Shown one piece after another: positions 1 through 63,975 of a stretch of 64,000 nucleotides of DNA. The notes beneath the pieces are model-generated. The model searched no databases. It had not been told where the DNA came from and saw only the letters and a program-made list of their open reading frames with translations. The position numbers and the translations under genes are program-made. Each line of letters opens with the position of its first letter. Positions within the stretch are counted from its first letter, which is position 1. Source of the DNA: Agelas oroides (Eukaryota; Porifera; Demospongiae; Agelasida; Agelasidae); contig OX422183.1 of NCBI GenBank assembly GCA_949130485.1, positions 3,360,136 through 3,424,135 on the forward strand. The letters run 5' to 3'.

Positions 1-574
1 TGTTGTTTAGAAGGGCCCTGGGCCTTGGATGAGGCATCTTAGACCATGTGACATCATCATGCAGCAAGAGAGTGGCTGTGCATGTGGATTGATATCAGCA
101 GCATTGCAAGGTCCAAGGTCCATGTTGGTACGCCTACTGTAGCCAAGGCACATAACAATTAGAATTATTCATGCAACAACAGAGTGGCTGTTGGTGTGGC
201 TCAGCGTTGCAAGGCCCAAGATATTTGCTTAGAAGCATTGTAGGTTATGGTATGTGGCTGTAAACAGACAACAACCTTCTTATAGCGTGGTAATGATTGG
301 TCCATGAGTAGTATAGTCACAGTTCAGCCTTTGACCATCAGCCCATAGAAATTGACCCAGGTCCTCAGAGATCTCGATAAATGTACTACCTCCGCTCTTG
401 TGAAATACCAAGAGATACTCATGCATGTCGTGTGCTCACTCTGCCCTCTTGAACTGTTCTTGGGACAGAACCCAAGTCTCAGGTAACCTGTTGTCAATTT
501 ACAAAGCACATTTACATTATGTCAATATACACAGAGAGCAACAGAACCTCTTCTATAGCTTAGATAACTGATTC
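1..574. other. No recognisable gene
   Basis: AT-rich sequence with only short open frames on either strand and no splice-supported coding. I see no repeat structure beyond short word similarities. Confidence 0.6.
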
Positions 575-5100: not shown

Positions 5101-8100
5101 ATGGCGATGAAGCAAGCTACTGTCCACACCCTCATGTTACTACTAGTGATACCCTTGGCCACTGCACAGTCTCTTCAATTGGTCTACATTGGTCGATCTG
5201 GAAGACAACCAGGGGATAATCAGATTCTCCTTGAGTGTCGTCGTAATACTATCCCTGTAGCCAGTCCCCAGCTCTTTGTTGAGCGGTCAGACCTAGCCAG
5301 GCAGCCAGTCACAACTAGTGTGGGCAACCAAAGTGGGCAGGTGACAGTTGAGATGACCCAGGACCTAGAAGGGCTGTATTCATGCAGTGACAATGGAGAT
5401 AGGTCTACCAATACATTGGAGTTTGTAGGTGAGGAAACTGCCATCAATGTATGAATTGGTAGGATTTCGATGACTACTTAATCGTCTTCTTCTTCTGCAG
5501 CGTACCCTCAAGCAAATATCTCGATACCTTCGTCCTATGCCTTTCAGGAAGGACAACAAGCCACCATCAATTGTCGTGTAATGCCTGGAGGACTGAGCCA
5601 ATACTACAGTGTTAGGTGGATGAATGGCAGTGTGACTATCGCCACATCAACCCCTCGTTCTGTGTTACCAGGATACCAACTCCATGACAACTTTTCCCTC
5701 ACAATCAATAACATACAACCTAGTGATTCCAGCACAAGTTATCGATGCAGTGTGACCATAGATGACCCTCGAATACCTGGTAGTACTCATGATGTAGTTT
5801 ACAACCAAAGCCACCTTGGCCTTATCACTGTGATGGTGTATGGTGAGTTACCTAACCAATACACCCATGCAGAGACATTATCCACAGTCAAGCAATGTAT
5901 TAACAAGATAATGGAGCCAAACATGAACATTACTGTGGTCTACAGGGAATTGTTAATCAACCGGCCATTTCCATGAGATAAGTATCTCTTAAGGTAGGAC
6001 AACCTTGAATCACAAATCTCCGAGTCATGTGGACGGACAGATGGGTAATGTCCAAGTGTACACAAAAAGTTTGTACCAAACTGCTTTCTCTACCTGATAA
6101 GGCCAAAAAACTCAATTTTTAGTCCCTCAGCTAAAATAAAAGTTTGCACCCTCTCCAAGGCTCCCCTCCCCCAGTCTGATCACATCATCAACATACACAC
6201 AAATCAAGTAAAAATTTTACGTACGGATTTGTCCTGGGACCACTTCAATTCCAGTCTACAGGCCAAAACACAGATTTGACCTCACAAACAGTATGCTGGC
6301 TTTGAAGAAAAATTTGACACACCCCCACTCAAACCAGCCAAAACTGAGCCCAGTTTCAGAAAGCTCAACTCAATGACACACATGGAGGGCCCCGTCGACC
6401 ATCCAATGCTACCACAGAACATACATGGCACCAATAATGATATTTATGAGGACCAATGACCGGAATGTTGCCTATGATTTGGCCACACAGTGCTAGCTAG
6501 ATCCAACTTATCAAGATTGTAGGCAGTTATGTTGGGCTTTAATTAGAGTCCTGGACTCATTAAGTGTTAGGATTAGGGAAAAATTTAGGCTTAGGGCTTA
6601 ACTAAGCCCTAAGCTTTTCATACTTCAGATTTGGAATACCTCAGGATATAAAAAATTATGATGTAGAATTACATAGGCAATGCTGCTTATGTAGCTTGTC
6701 TTCCGCTCCTCTGCAAGGGGTCCAGTGGCTTAACGGTAAGAGCGTCTGACTAGTATTCAGAAGGTCTTGGGCTCGAATCCCAGCTAGATCCCAGATATAT
6801 TCTCACTCTCTCAGCAAAAACAATCATCATTATCCAACCATTTATGTTGCTATAGAGGGTCCAGTGGGGGTTCAAATAGATTTACACTGTTTGGTAACTC
6901 ATCCCTCATAGCTGCTGCATCCCTTATAGAAAAACTGTGTACCCCCACAAAGAATTTTCCCTTATTTTATTAAGGGAAAAAACTGTGCCTGGAGTGCCAG
7001 CCTTCGACGTGATTGTTTATTCTCGGGCCATTGTAATTGTAGTAGTTCCACTGCTGGAGTCTAAATTGGCCATTGATCCAGGCTCTGTCAAATATGTGAC
7101 AAAGTCATTGATGTTGTCCAACTCTGGGGCTTCTTGTTGAACTCCTTGCCATACCACTCGAACAAAGCTGGGGGGAACAAAGCGGGTGGCTGCTGTCTTC
7201 CGCACAAAGCTTTTGAGGATTCCATCCTCAGATCTGTACTCCTCTTGCAGCCCCAAAGCCTGGATCTTTTGCCGAATTGCTTGCGAGTAGTGGTAGTAGC
7301 AGCCTCTGTGTTCAGCGGTCGGAAAGTTCAATCGGAGAGCATTGATGAGAGCCTGCTTGAAGTCGGAAAGAACTGAGAGGGGGTGAGATCCAGACAAAGA
7401 TCTAGTGCAGCTTCTTTCACCATCAATTCCGAATTCTACATTTTAATGTAACTTACTTTGTGTGTACTCTGCTGCTTGTTGGGAAGCAGGGCATACACCA
7501 TAGGGAATGTCTGGCTGTACTTGATGATGTGGATGGTGAAGATCTGATAGAACAGACATGGACACGTTTCGAAAGTTCCATCCATGTAGAAACACTCACT
7601 CAACAGCCATACTAATAGCTTGGCAACCAGTATTTGTGAGATACCCTTAAAATTCTCCCATTTCTATAGCCTCAAGCTTGACAGCAGTTGAGTAGCTACA
7701 ACCTTGTACCTTATGACACCACTTGAGTAGTGACAGGAAGTACCTATGTACCCTTACTTACCCCTAGGCTGAAATTTAAGTATGCCCATTATAATACTGC
7801 TGTTGATTTTGTGGGAAGTTGATTTAATGGGAGTTGACCTGGTGGGAAGTGGGAGTTGATTTAGTGGGAGTTGATCTCGTGAGAGTTGATCTCGTGGGCC
7901 TAAATCAGTAACACTATATTGGGGTACACAGGCACATCATGTTGGAAATTTTGTGTGGGGTACACAGTTTTTTCCCTTTATATAAGGGAACATTTTGTGT
8001 GGGGGTACACCATTTTTTCCCTTAATAAATTCTGTGTGGGGGTACACAGTTTTTCCCCTTTATATAAGGGATGCAGCAGCTGTGTTTCAAATAACCCAGG

Positions 8101-9387
8101 CACAGTTTTTTCCCTTAATAATAAGGGAAAAAACTGTGCCTGGGGTACACAGTCTCTCCCCTTAATATAAGGAATAGTTCACTAAATAGTGTAATCGTCT
8201 ACCAAACTGTCCAGTGGCTTAATGGTCTTGGGTTCAGATCCCAGCTGGATCCCAGATTTTTTTTCTTTCTGTGGATTTGTTTTTCACTCTCTCACCAAAA
8301 ACATCATTATTCAAGAGTGCCTACAGTCGTTTACAGTAATTAACATCAAGCCTCGGAACATCAATAGTGGCTTGCTAATTTTTACCCTAACCCTTTTGCA
8401 AAGAGTCTATATTAAATTTCCCAGGCTTAGCGTTAGACTAGTAAATGAATAAACATAAACACACTCCTCCCCCCCCCCCCCACACACACACACACATGCA
8501 CAAAACACACAGAACAACCCACTCCCTCTGTCACTGCTGTTACCATGCCCACATTTTTCACTCCCTCTGCCACTTCCACTGTCATGCTCACAATGCTTCC
8601 TCCTACAAGACACACTCTTGATAGTGCATACCCCCCTGTTACTTCCACTATCATGTTCACAACGTCATCTACAAGAAGCACTGTTGGTGTCTCTGTCACT
8701 CCCACTATCATGCCTACATCTTCTCCTTTCATGCTTGAACGTTGGCACATCATTTTGATAGCTGCTGTTGGTGGAGTAGTAATAATGGTGGTACTATTAA
8801 TACTTGGATGTATGTGTATAGTATGCTGCTATAAACTTAGCAAATGCAAGCCTTGCATATCTGCTAAACAGAAAGAGTTACATGAAAGAGCTGACAAGTT
8901 GGAACAAAATGGAATAAAAATGGCAAATAAGCTACCCAAAGATCCAAACAAGAGAAAAGTGAAGGAAAGTCTCATATCACATGAGAAGCAACAAGCCTCC
9001 AAACTTCGAGATCAAGCAGCAAAACTTCCAGATGATAATGCCAAACGCTGCAAAGACTTACGTGACCAAGCTGACAAGAAGGAACAGAAACAGAAGAGTT
9101 TGATAGACAACTTGGACCCAGATCCCATAAAGAGAAAAGAGCAGCGAAAACTAATAAAAAGGCTGGGAGAAGAAATAGAACGCCTCCGTAAAGCAGCAGA
9201 TCGAATGACCATTGATTCAGGTGAGAAGAAAGAAGGTGGTAACAGTGATGAAGACAATGTACAAGAGGACACTAGTAATGGAGTGGATGCAACATGCCGC
9301 AGCACAACAAACCCAAATTCAACAGGCCAGAAAGAACATGAGGTGGTTGACAGTGAGAATGATGAAGGCAATGTACGGGAGGACTAG
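5101..9387 (+). CDS. Gene A: two-Ig-domain single-pass receptor with charged helical tail
   Basis: Predicted exons are 5101-5428, 5501-5842 and 8513-9387. All introns are phase 1 with GT-AG ends, and the joined frame is 514 residues ending in TAG. Residues 1-23 are a signal peptide. Ig domain 1 has the cysteine pair C46/C95 (LYSC). Ig domain 2 has C134, W149 and C192 (SYRC). A Thr/Ser/Pro-rich stalk follows, then a membrane helix at about 303-330 and a Lys/Glu-rich helical tail. ATG 5101 is preferred over an in-frame ATG at 5089, because TTATGTACAG just upstream looks like a splice acceptor and gene B has no ATG at that position. A cell-surface recognition or adhesion role is inferred. The tail has no kinase, ITIM or death domain. 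It is paralogous to gene B. Confidence 0.8.
6719..6840 (+). mobile_element. tRNA-derived SINE, full head
   Basis: Positions 6719-6790 fold as a tRNA-like cloverleaf. D stem is GCTT/GAGC, the anticodon stem TCTGA/TCAGA encloses loop CTAGTAT (AGT at the anticodon position), the T loop is CTCGAAT, and the acceptor stem has one mismatch. B-box-like sequence GGCTCGAATCC is present. The following tail (CACTCTCTCAGCAAAAAC) recurs after a shorter copy at 8206. It is therefore a SINE with a tRNA head rather than a working tRNA gene. It lies in gene A intron 2. Confidence 0.65.
6930..7985. mobile_element. MULE-type DNA transposon remnant
   Basis: A transposase fragment on the - strand is bracketed by related inverted ends. 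The left end contains AAAACTGTGTACCCCCACA and the right end carries its near complement, GTGTGGGGTACACAGTTTT, around 7952-7980. It sits in intron 2 of gene A, which explains why that intron is about 2.7 kb against 0.8 kb in gene B. The exact ends and target duplication are blurred by extra copies of the end motif. Confidence 0.5.
7017..7625 (-). pseudogene. MULE transposase fragment
   Basis: Read from 7625 downward, the first segment contains FYMDGTFETCPCLFYQIFTI, the conserved DGTF block of Mutator-like transposases with the first catalytic Asp. It ends at a good donor (CACAAA|GTAAGT). The second segment (7017-7397) contains SDFKQALINALRLNFP, with the second catalytic Asp in its usual place, and GCYYHYSQAI. 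The region with the third acidic residue and the N-terminal DNA-binding domain are missing. It is a dead fragment. Confidence 0.75.
7940..8170. repeat. Cluster of palindromic GGGTACACAGTTTTTTCCC units
   Basis: Several alternating-orientation copies of GGGTACACAGTTTTTTCCCTTnATAAGGG. One is a nearly perfect palindrome at 8101-8140. The words match the ends of the adjacent MULE remnant, so this looks like expanded transposon termini. Confidence 0.6.
8206..8330 (+). mobile_element. tRNA-derived SINE, copy lacking the anticodon arm
   Basis: CTGTCCAGTGGCTTAATGGT joins directly to CTTGGGTTCAGATCCCAGCT, so the D and T arms of the tRNA-like head are present but the anticodon arm is deleted. The downstream body (TTCACTCTCTCACCAAAAAC) matches the copy at 6719. 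Confidence 0.6.
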
Positions 9388-10860
9388 TGATAGAGGGGAA
9401 CCAGATACAACATCATCATTATGCAACATGTAGTGACAGAGATTGAAACTACACTATTATGTTTATAGTTATCCCTATGTATTAGTTTGAGCTATTAGGT
9501 AGCTATGATAGCTATTTTCATTACAGATGGGTGATAGTGATACCATGGATAATGCTACAGTGTACTTAAGTTGGTTCCTTGTGATTTATGATACAATACT
9601 TAGCTCACCCATGAGGGACATTTGGCAGCTTGTGATAAGAAATAGTGACCCAAGCAAGGACTGAAAGCATTCAAGGACTGCATTTTGATGCTGACCAGAA
9701 ATGCACCTTACGTTTTGTTTTCCTTGGGAAGGGGGAGGCCAGGGAGGGGCCATTATCATGTGGTATCATATCACATTGATATACCTTGTAGCTACTCAAT
9801 AAAAAGTTTTTGAGGGAAAAGTGGGGGAATCGGTAAGTCATATGCATCTCTGCTTGCTTCACACACATCTAATAGAACTACCCCAGTATATTCTGCTAGT
9901 CAAATGAGCTTATTATATAAGTTTAGTCACACTTCCCAATCCCCTCCACCCATTATACCCACTAATCTATCTTCATTCTGATGGTATGCTTCATCTACAA
10001 CCCATCTACAATCGTGCAAGTCAGCCTTCTTGACTCCTGCCCTCCATCAGCATCAGTCCAACATCCTAAAAAAAAAAAATGAAATACCAAGTTAGTAGTG
10101 TTCAGAGCAGTTTCTATCAGCACATGGTGGAGGAGAGGGGGATACTGTGAAAACGTGGGAGTGTGCATGTAGCATGAATGGTGAGCATAAAGCCAATTGC
10201 ACATTATAAATTGAACTACACTGCAGCCTCTTCTTTGCACCCTTGCTCTTGGAACATCAGCACATGGTTACAGCTGCCAGCAACAGATTTGCAAGCTCTT
10301 AATTGTCTCTGGTATGACGATACTAGAGCCACAACTCATGCACCATCTTCATAAACCTCTTTGATTAACACTTTGCTGAAGAATACCAGAATTCCGTCAT
10401 TCCAACATGCAGTTAACAGTGCAAGCAGCCATGATAGTGAGGAGACCTTTCAACAGAGTAAGCTACTATATGTATGTATAAAGACTGTTAGCCAACACAT
10501 TCCTGTTGAAAGCCCACTTTTCTTCCCAATCAATAAATGCACACAGTGGTGACTTGTCACTATATAGCTATAGTCACTATATAGGCCCTGTTGATAAATA
10601 TATGCATGTACAGATTCAACACGCTATCTTTTGTACAATAATTTATACCAGGTAATTGCAAGTTAGCCTTGTGTAGCCATCGCATACAGCAGGAGCTTAT
10701 GAACTGCTACACCACTTTGGGGCACTCATAAGCTCCTGCATGCAGTATGCAACAAAATTGGGGAAAGAATCCTGCAGAAACTACATGGTTAAAGCCCCCC
10801 TAGCCCCCCCCCATTCCTACGCCCTTGGACCCTGAGAAGGTGGTACACTGCAGAAACTAC
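9388..10860. other. Intergenic spacer between genes A and B
   Basis: No coding exon recognised. AATAAA at about 9799 is a possible polyadenylation signal for gene A. A perfect-looking hairpin, GCAGGAGCTTATGA...TCATAAGCTCCTGC, occupies about 10688-10738 and may be a very small MITE. Confidence 0.5.
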
Positions 10861-10869
10861 ATGGTTTAA

Positions 10870-11245
10870 GTGACCATTAGCGCATGGTTACTGCAGTTTC
10901 ATGGTTCATTGAACAGGTGGGTAATATGATATGATCATCCATCAGCCACCTCAAAATCCATCAAGCTTCAAAGAGCTAGCAGAGACACTTGTCTGCTCGT
11001 CAAGGTATACCAGTTCATATGCATTCATCTGCTGGCTATTATCTGGTTCTGAACCAGATAATAGCCAGCAGATGAATTATGAACTGATATGTTGGCTAGC
11101 AGACAAGTGTCTGTGCTAGCTCTTTGAGGCTAGATGAAATTGTGAGGGAGTTGATGGATGATAATTGTGTTTTGGATTCCTTTAATCATATTACTCACCT
11201 GTTCAATAAACCCTGAAACTGCAGTAAACATGCACTTGTGGTTAT
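10870..11245. mobile_element. Foldback MITE, copy 2
   Basis: Homologue of 1571-1925 with a longer uninterrupted central palindrome (about 10974-11126). The arms start GTGACCATTAGCGCATGG and end with the imperfect reverse complement. Together with the flanking homology it marks the start of the duplicated block that precedes gene B. Confidence 0.7.
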
Positions 11246-11413
11246 TTTTTATTGTAGTTTTTGCAGTGATATAGCTATAGCATCTATGGAAGTGGACAGC
11301 AGAAGTTGGAATGTAGAGCAGCCTATGACATGCAGACCTGCACAAAAAAGATTGTGTAGTACATGCTATCGTGAGTCACTTCTCCCAGAAACAAATGTAG
11401 CTACAGTTACCCA

Positions 11414-11620
11414 ATGGTCATAACTGTCCTCATTATGTACACACTCTTCTTGAACAAGATTTGCAGGAGGAGGAGCAGCATTTTGGTGAAAGTTGAGTCA
11501 AGCAGTGACCCACAGTTGAGTCAACAACTGTTTCATTATACCATCAGAGCAGACTCAGAGGATCTCAAACAAGGAAGTGGAGTAGACGAGGAACTGCCAG
11601 GTGATGCTAGCTATCACTGA
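11414..11620 (+). CDS. Possible short exon: membrane helix plus cytoplasmic tail, copy 2
   Basis: A 68-codon version of the frame at 2105-2347, with the same hydrophobic start, CRRR cluster and RADSEDLKQGSG tail. Relative to copy 1 it has an 18-bp in-frame deletion and mostly conservative residue changes. The frame then ends slightly earlier through a local indel. The case for coding is the retained frame; the case against is the absence of splice evidence. Confidence 0.35.
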   Translation: MVITVLIMYTLFLNKICRRRSSILVKVESSSDPQLSQQLFHYTIRADSEDLKQGSGVDEELPGDASYH

Positions 11621-12332
11621 CACATGCTGCACTGAGCTGTGAACATGGAACAAACTATGAAAAATTGACACACAAGACGAGATCTGGAGGACCAGCCAGA
11701 CCAGACACTCAGCCGGTGCCAATGAATGGTCAGCAACAATGACCCAAGTTCATTTCAAAATGTCTGATGATCGATTCATAGTGGTCCTGAGCTACACTCA
11801 GTGATGGTAGCATCTGCTGTGGATGTGTGAAGGGAGAGTGGTGGGCTGCAGCCACTAGCAGAGCAGGGTGACAGAGAACATTGATGAGATGCATTCAATG
11901 GGAAAAGCACCACTTCATGGCATGCGCACCTTGTAAGATTTATATATTCTCTTAACCTTTGTTACCCATACTTTATTATGAATATGGGCATCAGGATATG
12001 ACTGAACCTGTGATCTACTGCTACATCCCGTATTCGTACTGTCACATGATCATGTACGTAAAGGAGGTGGGGCTACGATATGTCGACACTCAGCAAATTG
12101 CAAACGCTGCAGCGTGACAATGCAATCACTCGAGCCAAGTTTTAAAACTGAACTCAAAGCTAGTGCATGAGAAAAGGTTAAAGAAGGTACTAATCACAGT
12201 GAGTAATCGGTTTGGCGCGTCTGCTGGCGACGAGACAATGCGTTGTGTGTCCGGGAAGTAGCTAACGTTAGTACGCAAGTGTTCAGGCTTGATTATAGTT
12301 GGTACTGTTGCTTGCATTCTACGTACAGCACA

Positions 12333-14621
12333 ATGGTACTGAAGCGAGCTACTGTCCACACCCTCATGTTGCTACTGGTGATGACCTTGGCCACTGCACA
12401 GTCTCTTCAATTGGTCTACATTGGTCGATCTGGAAGACAACCAGGAAGTAATCGGGTTACCCTTGAGTGTCGCCGTGATGGCTTTGCTGTATCCAGTCCC
12501 CAGCTCTTTGTTGAGCGGTCAGACCTAGCCAGGCAGCCAGTCACAATTGTTGGCAACCAGAATGGGCAGGTGACAGTTGAGATAACCCAGGACCTAGAAG
12601 GATCATATTCTTGCAGTGACAATGGAGATAGGTCCACCAATACACTGGAACTTGTAGGTGAGGAATGCTGCCATCAAGTGTGTGAATTGGTAGAACTGTG
12701 GTGAGTTCTTAATTGTTGTTCTTCTCTTTAATTAGCTTACCCTCAAGCAAATGTCTCGATTCCTTCATCCTATGCCTTTCGGGAAGGACGACCTGCCACC
12801 ATCAATTGTCGTGTAATGCCTGGAAGATTGAGCCAGTACTACAGTGTTAGGTGGATGAATGGGAGTTTGACCATTGGCACATCAAACCCTCACTCTGTGT
12901 TGCAAGGATACCAACTCCATGACAACTTTTCCCTCACAATCAATAACATAGAACCTAGTGATTCCAGCACAAGTTATCGATGCAGTGTGACCATAGATGA
13001 CCCTCGAATACCTGGCACTGTTAACATAGTTTATGACCAGCTTGGCAGTACCACTGTAATGGTGCATGGTAAGTCACCTAACATACACCATACCCATAGC
13101 CTCGTTCCTGGCTCTTGGTCTCCTTGGCGAGGAGAGCATAGGAACGAGGCTATGTAACACTGTAATGGTGCATGGTAAGTCACCTAACATACACCACTCA
13201 TAGACTCGTTCCCAGCTCTCTGCCTCCTTAATGTGGAGAGCATGGGAACGAGGCTACATCACCCAGTCACCCACCCATGCAGTTGCATAAATACAACAGT
13301 CAAGGAATGTATTTTTAAAAATCAGGCTACATGATTGAGTTGAGCCTGAGCATACCTCCACATTCTACTACAGGATATTGTCAATCAACAAGCCATGTCT
13401 ATGTACTGTTACGTATGCAGGATAACTCTTGGTGTCAGTATAAACTTTTGCTAGTTTTGACTAAGCCTGTGAACAGTAAAGTGAATAACTCTCCATGTTT
13501 ACTTATGGACCATGAGAGAATGAATGAAAGAGTAAATGAATGAAGAGTGAATGAATAAATGAATGATAGTTATTCATTATTTCCCCTACCACACACAATA
13601 GAGTGAATGAATTATGATGAATGGTGAATGAACTATGATGAATGAATTATGATGAATGAGTGAATGAATGAGTGAATGAATGAGTGAATGAATGAGTGAA
13701 TGAATGAGTGAATGAATGAGTGAATGAATGAACTATAATGAATGAATGAATAAATCACAATTACTCATTACTTCCCTACCACACACACACGCATGCACAC
13801 AATAGTTTGAATGAATTAATGAATTATTTATTACTTTCCCCTACCACACACACATGCATACACACACAGAACAAATCATTCCCCATGGTACTTCCACTAT
13901 CATGGTACATCAACTCATTACCCCTGACACTTCCATTATCATGTTCACGTCACCTCCTACAGAAAGCAGTCTTAGTCTTGTAAACCCTTCTGCCACTCCA
14001 ACTACCACACTCACACGATCTCCTGTAGGAAGCACTCTTGAACTTAGAGATATTATTTTGATAGTTGCCAGTGGCATTATAGTTGTAGTAGTGATGATGA
14101 TACTGCTAATAGTTGGGTGTATATGCTGCTATATACGTAGCAAACACACTCATACTACTACTGAACAGAAGGTGTTATATGAGAGAGCTGACAAGTTGGA
14201 AAGAGAAGCAATGGAAATGACAAAAGAGCTACCCCAAGATCCAGACAAGAGGAAAGTAAAGGAAGATCTCATATCACATAAGACACAAGAAGCCTCCAAA
14301 CTTCGAGATCTAGCAGCAAGACTGCCACAGGAAAGGTACAAAGATTTACTTGAACAAGCTGACCAGAAACAACGTGAAGAGGATGAAAAGATAAAGAATT
14401 TGAGTTCGGATCCCCAAATAGCAAAATTACAGAAAAGAATAATAGAGGACATAAGAAAAGAGAAAAATGCACTTCGTAAAGAGGCACATCGTCGTATGGC
14501 CACTGATGAGGGTGAGGAGGATAATGAAGATGAGGATGGTGGCGAGCAACACCATGTACCAGAGGACGCTAGTGATGGAGGGGAGCCAGAACCAAAATAT
14601 TATAATGACACTTGCAATTAA
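12333..14621 (+). CDS. Gene B: paralogue of gene A
   Basis: Predicted exons are 12333-12657, 12736-13068 and 13870-14621, all with phase-1 GT-AG introns. They join to 469 residues ending in TAA. The layout is signal peptide 1-23, Ig domain 1 (C46/C94), Ig domain 2 in exon 2, Thr/Ser-rich stalk, membrane helix at about 280-307, and a Lys/Glu helical tail ending in an acidic stretch. Exons 1-2 are very close to gene A. Exon 3 is clearly more diverged, most in the stalk and distal tail. The upstream ATG at 12243 is in frame but lies before the acceptor-like CTACGTACAG, so I start at 12333. The role is unknown; a surface receptor is inferred. Confidence 0.8.
13050..13256 (+). repeat. Tandem duplication of the exon 2 donor plus a hairpin MITE (gene B)
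   Basis: ACTGTAATGGTGCATGGTAA, covering the end of exon 2 and its splice donor, occurs at about 13051 and again at about 13159. Each copy is followed by a small hairpin with TAGCCTCGTTCC-type ends (13097-13152 and 13201-13256). This is a roughly 105-bp tandem duplication that created a second donor-like GTAAGT at 13175. Confidence 0.75.
13500..13760 (+). repeat. GAGTGAATGAAT minisatellite
   Basis: Tandem 12-bp units of GAGTGAATGAAT with shorter GAATGAAT variants, inside intron 2 of gene B. Confidence 0.85.
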
Positions 14622-21847: not shown

Positions 21848-22344
21848 GTGGAGGCCCCACCAAGACTGCAACAGACACACGGACGCGGCAGATAGGCGAC
21901 TGTTGCGCCTCTGACACCAGCTGTCTATGGCTGAACTTGTACCCAACTCCAGTTCTGAGTGTGCTCCTAAATCCGACTGTCGGGGGAACGGAGTGTAGCG
22001 TTGGACAGGAGTGTAGCAGAGGTAGGGTGTGTGTATGCGAGGGATATTGTGAATACTTGTTTGGTGTGCTAGTGTCTAATTTGGCGCAATATCTCACCAT
22101 GTGGGAGTGGGTGGGGAATGGTGACACTGTAGTGTATTGTATTGCATAGTTTTGTGTATTGTCATTGTGTTATTTGGTTCTGTAGACTGTTTGTGTTGTA
22201 CTATGTATTATGTAATTATTTGTAATCTTTGCGCATGCTCAGTTATATACTCCTCCTCGTGTGTATGGACCACCATTTTGTATGAGCAGTTGTATGACCG
22301 GCTGTCCTTGGACATAATATTGGCGACGAGATTCGAGACGAACC

Positions 22345-22899
22345 ATGGCTACAGGGAGTACCTTTGGTCAAATGAATGCGTTTCGCCCGGGACGCGAGTG
22401 GCTGTTGGTGTATTTGGAGAGATTCGAGCTGTACATCTCTGTCAACAGTGTCGACGAGGAGAAGGTACCGTTGTTCCTTACTGTCATTGGGGGAACGGTG
22501 TACAGTTTGCTGCATGATCTGTTTGCCCCAGAGAGTCCCATTGACAAGCCCTACACCACTATCGTTGAGAAGTTAAAGGCGCACTTTGAGCCTAAGCCTG
22601 TGAACATCCTTACCCACCGATATACCTTCCATCACAGGAACCAAGGTCCCGACGAATCCATCGCCGAATACGTGGCGGAGCTTCACCGCCTAGCTTCGCA
22701 TTGTGAGTTGGGGACATTCCTGGAGCAAGCACTCCAAGACCGCCTAGTGTTTGGTATGAGAAGCGAGTCGACGAAAAAACGCTTACTCATGGAGAAAAGC
22801 CTTCGCTTAAAGGTGTCATGGAAGTATCGCTCAGCTTGGAGGCAGCCCAGAACGTGCAGACACTCAGGGGCTCTGAAGTGCCACAGCTCCACAAGTTAG
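22345..22899 (+). pseudogene. Gag of the nested retrotransposon
   Basis: A 184-codon frame with a retrotransposon gag capsid-like segment (YTTIVEKLKAHFEPKPVNIL and SIAEYVAELHRLASHCELG). The frame shifts near 22830. A downstream frame at about 22945-23045 holds zinc knuckles: one complete CCHC (CYCCGRAGHAPNAC) and a second in which the His is replaced. Confidence 0.75.

Positions 22900-31442: not shown

Positions 31443-63975
<32,533 letters not shown>

Follow-up and report, generated by a model that had tools for sequence, protein, structure and literature searches.

A tandem trio of immunoglobulin-domain genes with a duplicated helical-hairpin tail in the sponge Agelas oroides as candidate adhesion or recognition receptors

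A window of 64,000 nucleotides from the genome of the sponge Agelas oroides (C1:3360136-3424135 on contig OX422183.1, part of the 259-Mb assembly GCA_949130485.1 in 141 contigs) was analyzed, and two tandem genes within it, termed A and B, are described here together with a third copy, gene Z, situated on the same strand at C1:3341096-3344525 and ending approximately 16 kb upstream of the window. Our best explanation, drawn from sequence and held with roughly even confidence, is that the three genes encode type I membrane receptors belonging to a small family of the immunoglobulin (Ig) superfamily, which would act in adhesion or recognition and carry a helical scaffold anchor. The initial annotation had described A and B as sharing a signal peptide, two Ig domains, a stalk, a single membrane helix, and a helical tail, and this domain order was borne out by Pfam, hydropathy, and the predicted fold.

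Genes A and B span window positions 5101-14621, from the first ATG of gene A through the final stop of gene B, and their features given below lie on the forward strand (+). Read from the sequence, gene A comprises three predicted exons (5101-5428, 5501-5842, and 8513-9387) encoding 514 amino acids, and gene B another three (12333-12657, 12736-13068, and 13870-14621) encoding 469 amino acids, with GT-AG introns in phase 1; judged by these models, both are real genes. Exon 1 encodes the signal peptide and Ig-like domain 1, as indicated in A by the open reading frame, a phase-1 GT donor, paralogs of the exon in B and in six further genes, and an Ig-like predicted fold, and in B by splice sites and the paralogous exon. 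Exon 2, bounded by splice sites, encodes Ig domain 2, which in both proteins matched Pfam Ig_3 (E 1.5e-8; 35.4 bits against a cut-off of 30). Exon 3 encodes the stalk, the membrane helix, the charged cytoplasmic tail, and the stop (open reading frame, AG acceptor, and hydropathy in A; splice site and hydropathy in B). With an Ig domain above the curated profile cut-off, A and B are, by profile, Ig superfamily proteins. Domain 1 had no Pfam match, Ig_3 being found in domain 2 only; two cysteines, the motif D-L-E-G-x-Y-S-C, and a predicted Ig-like fold of moderate confidence suggest that it is Ig-like as well. A 19-residue hydropathy scan returned two hydrophobic stretches per protein, corresponding to the signal peptide and one membrane segment, and serine, threonine, and proline made up 50-55% of the stalk in A, B, and Z (55% in A, residues 224-297, 8513-8733). 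Within intron 2 of gene A, MULE-type transposase pieces occupy 7017-7663 (-) (7017-7442 matches Pfam MULE at E 2.2e-7, and 7436-7663 at 0.024, which is below the cut-off), and a tRNA-Thr(AGT) was called at 6719-6792 (+), with a similar stretch seen by eye at about 8205-8260; the call and this stretch are possibly tRNA-derived repeats. In gene B, a 104-bp tandem duplication (13048-13256) copies the 3′ end of exon 2 together with the donor site and a stretch resembling an inverted repeat.

The tail is composed of two tandem copies of a hairpin of approximately 52 residues with predicted helices, located in gene A at residues 344-395 (8872-9027) and 404-455 (9052-9207) and in gene B at residues 320-371 (14169-14324) and 377-429 (14340-14498); the internal duplication was equaled in 0 of 1000 shuffles. 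Nucleotide coordinates of the gene A stalk, of the hairpin repeats, and of the B-Z tract discussed below are conversions from residue or codon positions. The hairpin tail had no match in Pfam, none in the PDB by sequence, and no convincing fold match; its likeness to the bMERB domain of Mical/EHBP1 was not significant for a helical bundle, and a Pfam match to that domain was absent. When the tail was searched against the whole assembly (E up to 0.1), A, B, and Z were the three genes among the matches listed, and the gene B tail at E up to 10 returned A, B, Z, a 23-residue piece (E 0.235), and a chance-level row (E 8.5). The 23-residue piece lies just 3′ of the gene Z tail (about 6738-6788 of the Z-bearing stretch L036) and is a stray copy of the tail's acidic end. 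No Pfam kinase or TIR family was found in A, B, or two joined long-form relatives (see below), and the patterns of the immunoreceptor tyrosine-based inhibitory and activation motifs (ITIM and ITAM) occurred in none of eight family tails, five of which contain a YxxPhi pattern.

Divergence between A and B is uneven along the genes. Exons 1 and 2 have nucleotide identities of 0.883 and 0.892, against 0.667 for exon 3, and synonymous differences amount to 31 of 157 sites (0.20) in exons 1-2 and 35 of 68 (0.52) in exon 3 outside the B-Z tract, a contrast that exceeds chance (Fisher p = 2.3e-6). Within the trio, the ratio of nonsynonymous to synonymous change (dN/dS) in exons 1-2 was 0.36-0.49 and exon 3 was faster; by this measure, the Ig exons are under purifying selection on average. 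Positive selection in the stalk is not claimed (A-Z dN/dS 1.69, interval 0.8-4.8). Most of gene Z matches A, whereas approximately 400 bp of its tail match B: the tract, codon columns 148-288 of exon 3 (14181-14588 in gene B, ends approximate), is nearly unchanged between B and Z, and informative sites uniting Z with either A or B were of the B-Z type in 96 of 107 cases inside it and 47 of 175 outside (0 of 300 permutations). The tract is best read as gene conversion, with B as the probable donor. The proposal that exons 1-2 are far more alike than exon 3, and that the two parts diverged at different rates or exchanged sequence, is thus upheld by the identities, the synonymous contrast, and the B-Z tract; high rates in the Ig exons, expected of an expanding recognition cluster, were not found, given the dN/dS values above.

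At a threshold of E 0.1, a search with the gene A ectodomain scored all 24 candidates and gave 24 matches. Seventeen of these belong to eight genes (A, B, Z, and five dispersed ones), and the other seven rows represent weaker relatives or fragments; family counts are lower bounds, only the best candidates having been scored. The dispersed genes, at C1:18.397 Mb, C17:5.90 Mb, C17:7.378 Mb, C3:6.794 Mb, and C3:12.488 Mb, are long forms: downstream of Ig1-Ig2 they encode another Ig domain (Ig3) and a beta-type domain, which has no Pfam match, and then carry an exon for the membrane segment and tail. Like A and B, they have the signal peptide region and both Ig domains, end their exons in phase 1, carry one membrane segment, and finish in a charged tail; over Ig1-Ig2, the four that gave one joined match are 45-70% identical in protein sequence to A or B. 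The Ig exons are kept, and the phase at the end of exon 1 is identical in Z and all five (6 of 6). They differ from the trio in their extra Ig and beta-type domains, their dispersal in the genome, and the lack of a hairpin-repeat tail. Against the long-form tails, the hairpin-repeat profile reached a best E-value of 13 (database size set to 1000), and the tail exons of trio and long forms are similar in the membrane stretch only (28 residues, E 3.8e-4), which may reflect hydrophobic composition. The C-terminal ends of Z (ITTV) and of the relatives at C17:5.90 Mb (TTVF) and C17:7.378 Mb (ETKI) resemble PDZ-binding ends of class I, unlike those of A and B. At C3:6.794 Mb, the Ig2 exon (exon 2) is broken by an insert of approximately 400 bp with stops (stretch L051, 1268-1665), apparently a mobile element judging by flanking inverted and direct repeats, and no start codon aligned with those of other members was found for the gene at C17:7.378 Mb. 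The beta-type domain occurs at six or more genomic places, the sixth of which (C3:7290398) contains a stop and lacks an Ig1-Ig2 match in its vicinity. Third-Ig or beta-domain exons were detected neither in intron 2 of A or B (14 long-form queries, E up to 0.05) nor in the Z-bearing stretch.

A large expanding cluster, as the initial annotation had envisaged, is rejected: the tandem array has three members among the matches listed, the tail was found only in these among the matches listed, and the Ig exons are not fast. No further matches to A or B were found in C1:3328000-3337999 or C1:3348000-3357999, the remainder of the window gave nothing beyond a single weak row, and there was no additional family member near the array in the genome search with the A ectodomain, among the matches listed. 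Since the five relatives are long-form and dispersed and the tail was found in A, B, and Z only, the trio looks like a shortened side branch of a receptor family, which is probably a small, sponge one. That no named family has this combination stood in so far as no Pfam family fits the whole; the ectodomain is not isolated, however, being present in at least eight genes of this genome (three tandem, five dispersed). A literature search found no description of an Ig pair, stalk, and hairpin tail combined, most subscription journals being beyond reach and absence unproven.

As the tree suggests, the short trio would derive from a long form (Ig1-Ig2-Ig3-beta domain) that lost two exons of its ectodomain and acquired a new tail as well as a mucin-like stalk. 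The stalk may keep the Ig pair away from the membrane, where the pair would bind a partner on an adjacent cell or in the matrix, and the helical tail may serve as a scaffold on which cytoplasmic partners, cytoskeletal or trafficking, dock or cluster, being probably neither an enzyme nor a classical tyrosine-motif switch. We infer the surface location, partner binding, and scaffold role from sequence; a role in adhesion or recognition is plausible.

Other identities were weighed. Hydractinia Alr proteins carry ITIM/ITAM-like tyrosine motifs in the tail. It is unlikely that A, B, and Z are allorecognition or self/non-self receptors of this kind, in which polymorphic Ig ectodomains would recognize like on neighboring individuals and conversion would feed diversity. 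Tandem Ig-type membrane receptors with a stalk and sequence exchange among copies would fit, and the Podocoryna complex, for which PMC13119343 reports 22 putative allorecognition genes in addition to members at other places, has the same layout in outline. However, the trio is limited to three copies, its tails lack the ITIM/ITAM pattern, its Ig exons show neither excess amino-acid change nor a sign of diversifying selection, and the mosaicism affects its cytoplasmic tail rather than the binding domains.

Unlikely, too, is the possibility that the trio represents sponge adhesion molecules of the GSAM/GCSAM type known from Geodia. These have two Ig domains, one membrane helix, and no kinase, a set that A and B share in architecture, and domain order and size are similar; the hairpin repeat of the A and B tails, in contrast, is not known from GSAM/GCSAM. 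The best PDB sequence matches of Ig2 were antibody light-chain V domains, which the Geodia GSAM Ig domain also resembles according to passages of PMC7916673, and excerpts of PMC7916673 and PMC11999971 likewise present a membrane-bound adhesion type; yet V-type Ig domains often show such resemblance, the best E was only 8.7e-4, and the comparison with Geodia is one of description. Receptors sensing microbes or symbionts, whose Ig pair would bind microbial or environmental ligands while the tail recruits an adaptor, are improbable. Sponge Ig-domain genes are regulated on exposure to microbial patterns (PMC6208332, PMC8242945, in part), but the passages concerned do not name this family, and A and B lack TIR or any other known innate-signaling domain in Pfam, in which they differ from the sponge Ig-TIR receptors of the same excerpts despite a shared membrane-bound Ig ectodomain. 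The Geodia receptor tyrosine kinase, as outlined in part of PMC12018476, similarly combines external Ig domains with one membrane helix, but A and B have no kinase.

Several further features were observed. At C12:0.94-1.12 Mb, C1:0.67-0.95 Mb, C4:7.17-7.20 Mb, and C19:6.87-6.90 Mb, Ig-domain matches are densely packed, in part at even spacing, which suggests large clusters of Ig genes or genes with many Ig domains. Seven cathepsin/silicatein-like stretches of the assembly, retrieved with a query bearing cysteine at the catalytic site, comprise three with CGAS at this site and four that retain cysteine; serine there marks silicatein, which makes a siliceous demosponge likely. In the window, a long open frame at 50523-52832 (-) is TRIM/NHL-like (RING, B-box, and NHL repeats by eye), and a broken TRIM/NHL-like piece lies at 170-511 (-) of stretch L036. 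A 707-residue open frame at 35823-37946 (-) is very rich in lysine, aspartate, glutamate, and arginine and contains a 30-bp tandem repeat of about nine copies (37094-37373), and an open frame at 22318-22899 (+) resembles a retroelement gag protein by eye.

A bolder view, to which we attach little probability, is that the array is a recognition locus of exchangeable modules, in which an ectodomain shared with a dispersed family would be joined to a new duplicated-hairpin tail moved by gene conversion between tandem copies. If so, copies with different ectodomains would stay on one intracellular scaffold, and Ig recognition would be coupled to the cell interior without tyrosine motifs in an early-branching animal.
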